A stretch of 64,000 nucleotides of DNA. Origin: Erythrobacter sanguineus (GTDB lineage: Bacteria > Pseudomonadota > Alphaproteobacteria > Sphingomonadales > Sphingomonadaceae). A program made the position numbers and the translations under genes. This document shows positions 40,135 through 58,734 of this stretch, in pieces (position 1 is the stretch's first letter; each line of letters starts with the position of its first letter). The notes under the pieces were generated by a model. It saw only the letters and a list, made by a program, of their open reading frames with translations, had not been told where the DNA came from and did no database searches. The DNA lies in the NCBI GenBank assembly GCA_945878845.1, contig CAMCUB010000004.1, positions 1-64,000 on the forward strand. The letters are read 5' to 3'.

Positions 40135-40150
40135 CGCCGTTCAGCTGGCG

Positions 40151-40285
40151 GCGTGTTGGAGACACATGAGACACTGTCCAGAAGCGGAAATCCCTTTGCC
40201 CCGCACCAGCGCTGCAAAGCATGGGAAAGGGCGCTCCGACTCGTCATGGGCACGACCCTGACAGGCGCGGGCCGTGTAGGAAAGT
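40151..40285. ncRNA. Candidate structured RNA/3'UTR element, copy A (24-nt repeat at 5' end as read on + strand)
   Basis: GCGTGTTGGAGACACATGAGACAC identical to 58570-58593; downstream GGGAAAGGGCG..TCCG..TCAT and CAGGCG..GTAGGAAA also shared with copy B; strand undetermined. Confidence 0.4.
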
Positions 40286-40288
40286 GTT

Positions 40289-40693
40289 TCAAACCATCAG
40301 GATATTCATGACCGCCGTCGCGATTGGCCGCGCGCGGTCGGCCTGCCATGCCTCGACCGTCACATTGGCATTGCGCCGCCCCAGCCGGGTGATGCGCCCC
40401 ACCGCAAAGCTCGCCTGCGACTTGCCCGCGGCGAGATATTGGACGGTGATGTTGATCGGCTTGAGCAGCGGATCGCGCCCGGCCGCGATCAGCGCGGTGC
40501 GCAAGGCGGCATAGCCCGCATTCTCGAGCAGGCCCGCGGTCGCCCCGCCGTGGAAGTGCTGCGGGCGGCCTTCGACGACGGGGCCGAAATCCACCGTCAG
40601 CACCGGCATACCGCCCTCGCTCTCGCCGGTCAGCGTGACGCCGAGCGAACGGGCATAGGCAGGAAGTTCCAGCCCCTCAGGCATCGCCGCCAC
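40289..40693 (-). CDS. PaaI-type hotdog thioesterase
   Basis: HFHGGATAGLLENAGYAAL hotdog motif. Confidence 0.82.
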   Translation of the reverse strand: MAAMPEGLELPAYARSLGVTLTGESEGGMPVLTVDFGPVVEGRPQHFHGGATAGLLENAGYAALRTALIAAGRDPLLKPINITVQYLAAGKSQASFAVGRITRLGRRNANVTVEAWQADRARPIATAVMNILMV

Positions 40694-57753: not shown

Positions 57754-57790
57754 GCATGCCGCCGCGTCATCGCAAGGAGCCCCGACCGGC

Positions 57791-58114
57791 ATGGCCCACC
57801 ATCCCCGCCAGCGCAGCATCGCGGTGCTCGCCGCGCCCACCGGCAGCGCGGCTGTGATCCGCGTCGTCTACCTCGGCAAGCTCGCCGATGTCGCGGGTAA
57901 GCCGGTGAGCGAGTTCGCTTCCAGCTCGGGCGATCTCGACTGGCCCGACCTGCTCGCCCTGTTCGACACCCATGTGCGCGAGGGGCTGGCCGCCGCCGTC
58001 CGCGACCCGCGCGTCAAGGTCGCGCTTAACGGCGCTGTGCTCGCCGATCGCGAGGCGCTGGTTGCGCGCCATGGTGACGAGATCGCGCTGCTCCCCCCCG
58101 TCTCGGGCGGCTGA
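57791..58114 (+). CDS. moaD: Molybdopterin synthase small subunit (MoaD/ThiS)
   Basis: IRVVYLGKLADVAG...DEIALLPPVSGG C-terminal GG; alternative GTG start at 57854. Confidence 0.88.
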   Translation: MAHHPRQRSIAVLAAPTGSAAVIRVVYLGKLADVAGKPVSEFASSSGDLDWPDLLALFDTHVREGLAAAVRDPRVKVALNGAVLADREALVARHGDEIALLPPVSGG

Positions 58115-58117
58115 GCC

Positions 58118-58588
58118 GTGCCCCATCGCGACATCCGCCTGCTGACCGAGCCCTTCAATCCCGGCACGCTGATCGGCCCGTTCACGCAGGCCAATCCGGG
58201 CCTCGGGGGCGTGTGCACCTTCGTGGGCGAGGTGCGCTTTGATGAGGGCGTCGAGGCGCTGGAACTCACCCATTACGAGCCGCTGACCCTCCCCGGCATG
58301 CACGAGCTGGCCGACCGCGCCTTTGCCCGCTTCGCCCTGATGGGCCTGCTGATGGTCCACCGCGTCGGCGTGATGCGCCCGGGCGAGCCGATCGTCTGCG
58401 TCTCGGCCGCCGCGCTCCACCGCCGCGATGCCATCGACGCGGTCGACTTCTGCATGGATCACTTGAAGAGCGCCGCGTGGTTCTGGAAGCGCGAGAAACG
58501 GGCGGGCGAGTGGCACTGGATCGAGCCGCGCCAACAGGACCACAGCGATCTCGCCCGCTGGCACACGCCGCGTGTTGGAGACACATGA
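58118..58588 (+). CDS. moaE: Molybdopterin synthase catalytic subunit
   Basis: GGVCTFVGEVR...LELTHYEPL...HRVGVMRPGEPIVCVSAAALHRRDAIDAVDFCMDHLKSAAWFWKRE; GTG start. Confidence 0.94.
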   Translation: MPHRDIRLLTEPFNPGTLIGPFTQANPGLGGVCTFVGEVRFDEGVEALELTHYEPLTLPGMHELADRAFARFALMGLLMVHRVGVMRPGEPIVCVSAAALHRRDAIDAVDFCMDHLKSAAWFWKREKRAGEWHWIEPRQQDHSDLARWHTPRVGDT

Positions 58589-58720
58589 GACACAGTATAA
58601 AGGCCAAATAACCTTCCCCTGCGCGGGCGATATCCAAGGGGCCTGAACAGGGTAGGGAAGGGCGGGTATCCGGTTCATCCGCCAGTGTGTGACACAAGGC
58701 AGGCGAGTAGGAAAATTCTA
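58570..58720. ncRNA. Candidate structured RNA/3'UTR element, copy B
   Basis: Same 24-mer as 40151-40174; overlaps the moaE stop codon; CCTTCCC (58613) can pair with GGGAAGG downstream; strand undetermined. Confidence 0.4.
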
Positions 58721-58734
58721 TCGCGCCGCCCTAT

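Follow-up and report, generated by a model that had tools for sequence, protein, structure and literature searches.

A dispersed box closing a putative leaderless promoter unit in Erythrobacter sanguineus, with a terminase-like HTH protein as candidate binding factor

The window analysed here is the whole stretch of 64,000 nucleotides at the start of contig CAMCUB010000004.1 of Erythrobacter sanguineus. The 24-mer GCGTGTTGGAGACACATGAGACAC has two exact matches in it, at 40151-40174 and 58570-58593, both on the plus strand. The first (copy A) lies between the genes for PBP1A and a thioesterase, and the second (copy B) follows moaE. An earlier reading made from the sequence only had described this double occurrence as very unlikely to be a chance event, and this is confirmed by a scan of the window in which no third match is found at up to three mismatches and by 100 shuffles which gave 0 matches. 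Both copies belong to a longer unit that is predicted to be read on the minus strand and has the following features.

40153..40193, minus strand: left box of copy A, about 39 bp, predicted binding site of the HTH protein, core GTTGGAGACACATGAGACAC-TGTCC, with a T-run (AAA on the plus strand) at its inner edge
40245..40247, minus strand: ATG of copy A, placed where transcription is predicted to begin (leaderless start), in a frame without stops through the box
40255..40263, minus strand: predicted extended -10 element of copy A, TGnYAnnnT
40276..40283, minus strand: right box of copy A, TTTCCTAC, the predicted -35 element (GTAGGAAA on the plus strand), 17 bp from the -10 hexamer
40135..40292, no strand: stretch of copy A missing in most relatives, where the empty site lies between two stop codons
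58572..58612, minus strand: left box of copy B, AGTATAAAGGC variant, whose TGA at 58586-58588 is the stop of the moaE reading frame
58676..58678, minus strand: ATG of copy B at the predicted transcription start, where ORF 57767-58678 begins
58707..58714, minus strand: right box of copy B, TTTCCTAC (predicted -35 element)
58564..58732, no strand: stretch of copy B missing in most relatives

The idea of a family of two members reflected the limits of the window. In the whole genome (3.2 Mb, 57 contigs) the 22-mer core has 22 copies within three mismatches, against 0 matches for its reversed control, and a slightly wider pattern gives 28 copies. On this evidence the repeat is the core of a predicted binding box, scattered in about 25 copies over this genome. 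A public collection of genomes contains at least 114 exact stretches, which belong to Erythrobacter, Porphyrobacter, and related MAGs; these loci were retrieved with an exact 20-mer, a search that leaves decayed boxes unseen. Of the 96 genera of the family, 29 contain the universal core ACACnnnnnACACwGTCCw, and the predicted boxes, in species-specific dialects, thus occur in at least 29 genera. Loci of other genera that match with three mismatches (L138, L145) are attributed to chance. Rfam returned 0 matches to the repeat, also at a lax threshold, and no description of the system or of its motif strings was found in the open-access literature. The earlier description of a genuine, conserved, and unrecognised repeat with a shared downstream architecture is upheld, and the search that it had proposed in the rest of the genome and in relatives yielded further copies in both.

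In the aligned copies, the left box of about 39 bp reads [C/G]TGTTGGAGACACATGAGACAC-tGTccagaa-crGAAAAcc. It is followed by a middle that is first C-rich and then G/A-rich, with sequence unrelated between copies, by weakly conserved TCATG and TGnCA, and by GTAGGAAA on the plus strand at 120-160 bp from the left box. Indeed, 95 of 101 units share less than 75% identity with each other in their bodies. Read on the minus strand, the order is promoter, ATG at the predicted start, ORF open only to the box, T-run, and box. Nearly half of the copies in the window's genome carry the variant AGTATAAAGGC after the core. Many unlinked positions have a lineage-specific AGTATAAAGGCAGAAATCTC in place of TGTCCAGAACCGGAAAACC, as though one site had served as the template for another (58572-58612, L001, L010, L013, L015-L017, L019). 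The box consists of 9-bp iterations, given that one copy (L022) contains a third such unit (ATGAGACAC) and that CTGACACAC is present three times in the boxes of G030 and G060.

The right box on the minus strand forms part of a predicted extended -10 promoter, TTTCCTAC-N12-TGnYAnnnT, with 17-bp spacing. Its -35 is TTTCCT, unlike TTGACA, and its -10 is YAnnnT with the TG extension; by sequence the two elements lie upstream of the start at the 16-18 bp distance of sigma70-like promoters. An ATG occupies the predicted start in 99 of 110 copies. In 98 of these 99 its reading frame runs through the box without a stop, and the +2 frame does so in 78 of 99; the conserved ATGA puts a stop in the +1 frame. 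In a second set, collected with the dialect-independent universal core and consisting mostly of other dialects and genera, the corresponding open frames are 36 of 39 against 23 of 39. Stop codon frequency rises from 0.21% before the box to 2.55% just after it (169 thinned units), so that the constraint on the ORF ends at the box, and a T-run precedes the box in 135 of the 169 units. The right box is also located 48-65 bp before the start codons in three gene families, encoding the HTH protein, a DUF6456 protein, and a phage-type lysozyme. Since it precedes DUF6456 in 30 of the 30 species compared, whether boxes are present or absent, it represents a promoter class independent of the box. The promoter and the leaderless start are thus predicted features supported by statistics. 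At one locus (L079) a promoter of the right-box type occurs without a box, and its ATG is at the start site of an ordinary gene, 3' of a hairpin.

The protein that would recognise the box is encoded elsewhere in the genome. It is an HTH protein homologous to the terminase small subunit (phrog_4044, E 4.6e-16 and 1.5e-16), its structural matches in BFVD are terminase small subunits (E ~2e-4), and comparison with the Sf6 TerS structure gives a probability of 0.77 with a non-significant E value. A PDB sequence search gave 0 matches, the domain searches gave no catalytic domain, and the tail is strongly acidic. Its immediate neighbour is a solute symporter gene, and the short flanks read contain no terminase large subunit or head/capsid genes. 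Of the 61 genomes of the genus, 26 encode a close orthologue, and elsewhere only distant paralogues are found. Boxes occur in 26 of the 26 genomes with a close orthologue versus 6 of the 35 without (p=1.4e-11); the association tests treat species as independent, so that their p-values are overstated, and the dialect switches represent several independent events.

Boxes at unlinked sites change together by lineage, orthologous positions included, which argues for a trans-acting recogniser. For example, the dialect is TTGGAGACACATGAGACAC in the window genome, TAGGAG... in G028, and ...CATGT[G/T]ACAC in G283. The dialects are paired with the recognition helix of the HTH protein: SRAHLYRMRR goes with GAGACAC, SRSTAYRMRR with TGACACAC, SxQTAYRARR with GGAACAC, and APMTAYRWRR with GTTACAC. 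A prediction made from this pairing was borne out, as ACCGCATGTTACACnGTCC, read from the box near one gene, is present in exactly the 5 of 61 genomes with SHQT[AV]YR. Furthermore, in 23 of 26 species the HTH protein's own gene has a box within or at its 3' end, and the right box lies upstream of that gene in nearly all of them. The automatic search gave no box at 7 of the 26 orthologues; in 4 of these 7 a ACCGCATGTTACAC box stands right next to the gene, and in the other three (G033, G036, and G053) only related coding peptides are found. Co-evolution thus strongly supports the HTH protein as the best candidate for a trans-acting factor at the boxes, and the joint change of sites and protein between species points to a system not described so far.

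Six genomes bear boxes without a close HTH orthologue. Decayed boxes in G010 and G058 suggest a recent loss of the orthologue. G002 and G013 are box-rich, and a diverged paralogue may serve them. In the window genome, the orthologue (L011 / G000:C12:39231-39764) has an in-frame TAG before the HTH and the boxes are intact; either a recent loss or a shorter product would account for this.

The reading preferred here is a minus-strand promoter unit ended at the box by the terminase-like HTH protein, to which a probability of about 45% is given. The binding is derived from co-evolution and the promoter and ORF from sequence statistics, and the roadblock step is inferred. The right-box promoter (TTTCCT, 17 bp, TGnYAnnnT) would start a minus-strand transcript at or beside the ATG, and this transcript would be translated without a leader. 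The left box, 100-150 bp downstream, would be the DNA site of the HTH protein, which once bound would act jointly with the T-run immediately ahead of the box to halt RNA polymerase, making the box the transcription end. Termination at this point is suggested because the ORF constraint stops suddenly there, because of the T-run, and because boxes lie at the ends of right-box units. The unit body has no hairpin signal above chance, and a classical intrinsic terminator is therefore not supported. An open frame and a T-run ending at a predicted protein-binding box resemble roadblock termination and antitermination systems; the difference is that termination is here a prediction and that the HTH protein family is not known as a terminator. 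Against the preferred reading stand the lack of conservation in the peptide sequence of the unit, the six box-bearing genomes without a close HTH orthologue, the in-frame TAG in the orthologue of the window genome, and the position of about half of the sites away from convergent gene ends.

In evolutionary terms, Sphingomonadaceae may have domesticated a phage packaging protein, which would now bind DNA throughout the genome at tens of dedicated chromosomal sites, each with a leaderless promoter unit, and fast protein-site divergence would have produced clade dialects that amount to a natural specificity code. The odds of this proposal are considered a little better than even. If true, a protein of viral packaging would underlie an undescribed system on the chromosomes of at least 29 genera, and its protein-DNA code could be read, the site being predicted by residues of the helix. 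In these genomes it would also account for many antisense ORFs now called "hypothetical" and for otherwise unexplained inserts between genes.

The genomic distribution of the units is relevant to a different origin. Between the genes for PBP1A and the thioesterase, at most 67 bp are found in 25 of 30 loci, and the unit is present only in the window genome and G058; at moaE it is present only in the window genome and G032 among 30 aligned loci. By these comparisons both sites are clean insertions, absent from most relatives. Box-rich and box-free species are interleaved on the tree of flanking genes. In gene calls corrected for antisense ORFs, the gene on the right has its 3' end facing the unit in 50 of 67 ortholog clusters (p=7e-5). 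Convergent junctions make up 31 of 66 locus clusters versus 8 of 68 window junctions (p=8e-6); roughly half of the sites lie elsewhere than between convergent genes. In being short insertions that are dispersed between genes, common where gene ends converge, and missing at the same place in relatives, the units resemble REP/RAYT and MITE elements. The copies could then be non-autonomous MITE-like elements moved with the HTH protein, whose gene, flanked by a right box on one side and a left box on the other, would represent the complete element. The empty sites of a few bases to about 67 bp agree with this, and the convergent-end preference is what tolerated insertions would leave. However, the comparison of empty and filled sites at A and B gives neither terminal inverted repeats nor target-site duplications, and the bodies are unrelated between copies. 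As to REP elements, no palindrome is seen in the units, and their middle shows no stem signal. The HTH protein is not a known transposase, and its lack of a recognised catalytic domain also speaks against mobilisation. Moreover, at many positions common to box-bearing species the box is intact while the middle is unalignable; in genomes that have the system, selection therefore seems to maintain the boxes, which is not expected of pure drift after insertion. This origin is considered unlikely.

The sites without a nearby right box flank the DUF6456 gene, lie inside the phage-type lysozyme ORF, or flank the HTH gene, and in all three families the right box is on the far side of the gene. Boxes close the DUF6456 unit in several dialects. 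In three species (L062, L068, L082) a perfect box lies within the lysozyme coding region, with the right box before the gene.

Phage pac sites are often located within or at the gene of the terminase protein itself. The boxes might likewise be pac-like packaging starts, at which the terminase-like protein marks dispersed sites for a gene transfer agent or prophage to package host DNA. As in TerS/pac systems, the protein is a terminase small subunit homologue, a DNA site lies at or in its own gene, and protein and site are paired species by species, here as judged from sequence. The DUF6456 gene, which the boxes follow, is annotated as gafA in Sphingomonadales (PMC9765227). A phage-packaging or gene-transfer-agent role is attractive given this gene (PMC9765227, PMC9638019) and the boxes inside the lysozyme gene. 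Unlike TerS/pac, the short flanks read hold no large subunit or head genes, about 10-30 sites are dispersed over the chromosome and paired with a promoter, and the protein has a strongly acidic tail. The link to GafA/GafYZ control of gene transfer agents is that the DUF6456 (gafA) gene has the same right-box promoter, often with a box after it; the papers searched yielded no promoter of the right-box kind for Sphingomonadaceae. No significant link is seen between boxes and TIGR02218, the RcGTA-type tail gene (17 of 26 versus 15 of 35 genomes, p=0.12). This gene is absent from the window genome and from box-rich G003, G028, G048, and G054, so that dependence on a gene transfer agent is unsupported by this test. 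Packaging also leaves the promoter and open frame unexplained, and it is regarded as distinctly unlikely.

The ATG at the start site and the frame open up to the box could also mean that each unit is a leaderless gene for a small protein with a function of its own in the cell. This is quite improbable, as the copies encode peptides of unrelated sequence, the frame that runs through the box can be any of the three (48 a, 29 b, 22 c), GC bias by codon position is weak, and a conserved end is absent.

The sequence-only reading had proposed a plus-strand ncRNA or 3'UTR family with conserved covarying structure. The conserved 24-mer and the C-rich then G-rich block of every copy are present as it described, and the pyrimidine/purine blocks are real. 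These blocks are not copy-specific: the middle folds with no better energy than chimeras made from two copies (z +0.5) or dinucleotide shuffles (mean z -0.09), and arm pairing is no better within than between copies (z -1.4). The apparent stems are a product of C-rich and G-rich composition, and since they have no copy-specific pairing the covariation argument, with its compensatory changes that keep a structure, fails. TCAT and GTAGGAAA are truly conserved, and they belong to the minus strand, as the start ATG and the predicted -35. With no copy-specific pairing, no Rfam match, and boxes that change together with a DNA-binding helix, such an RNA is barely credible, and the evidence favours a protein-binding DNA box with a promoter reading in the opposite direction.

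Helical phasing between boxes, with p~1e-6 at first, fell to p~0.02 after thinning of related copies and is not claimed. Finally, GTTCAGC recurs 10-25 bp before many boxes, between the gene's stop codon and the unit (e.g., 40139-40145).
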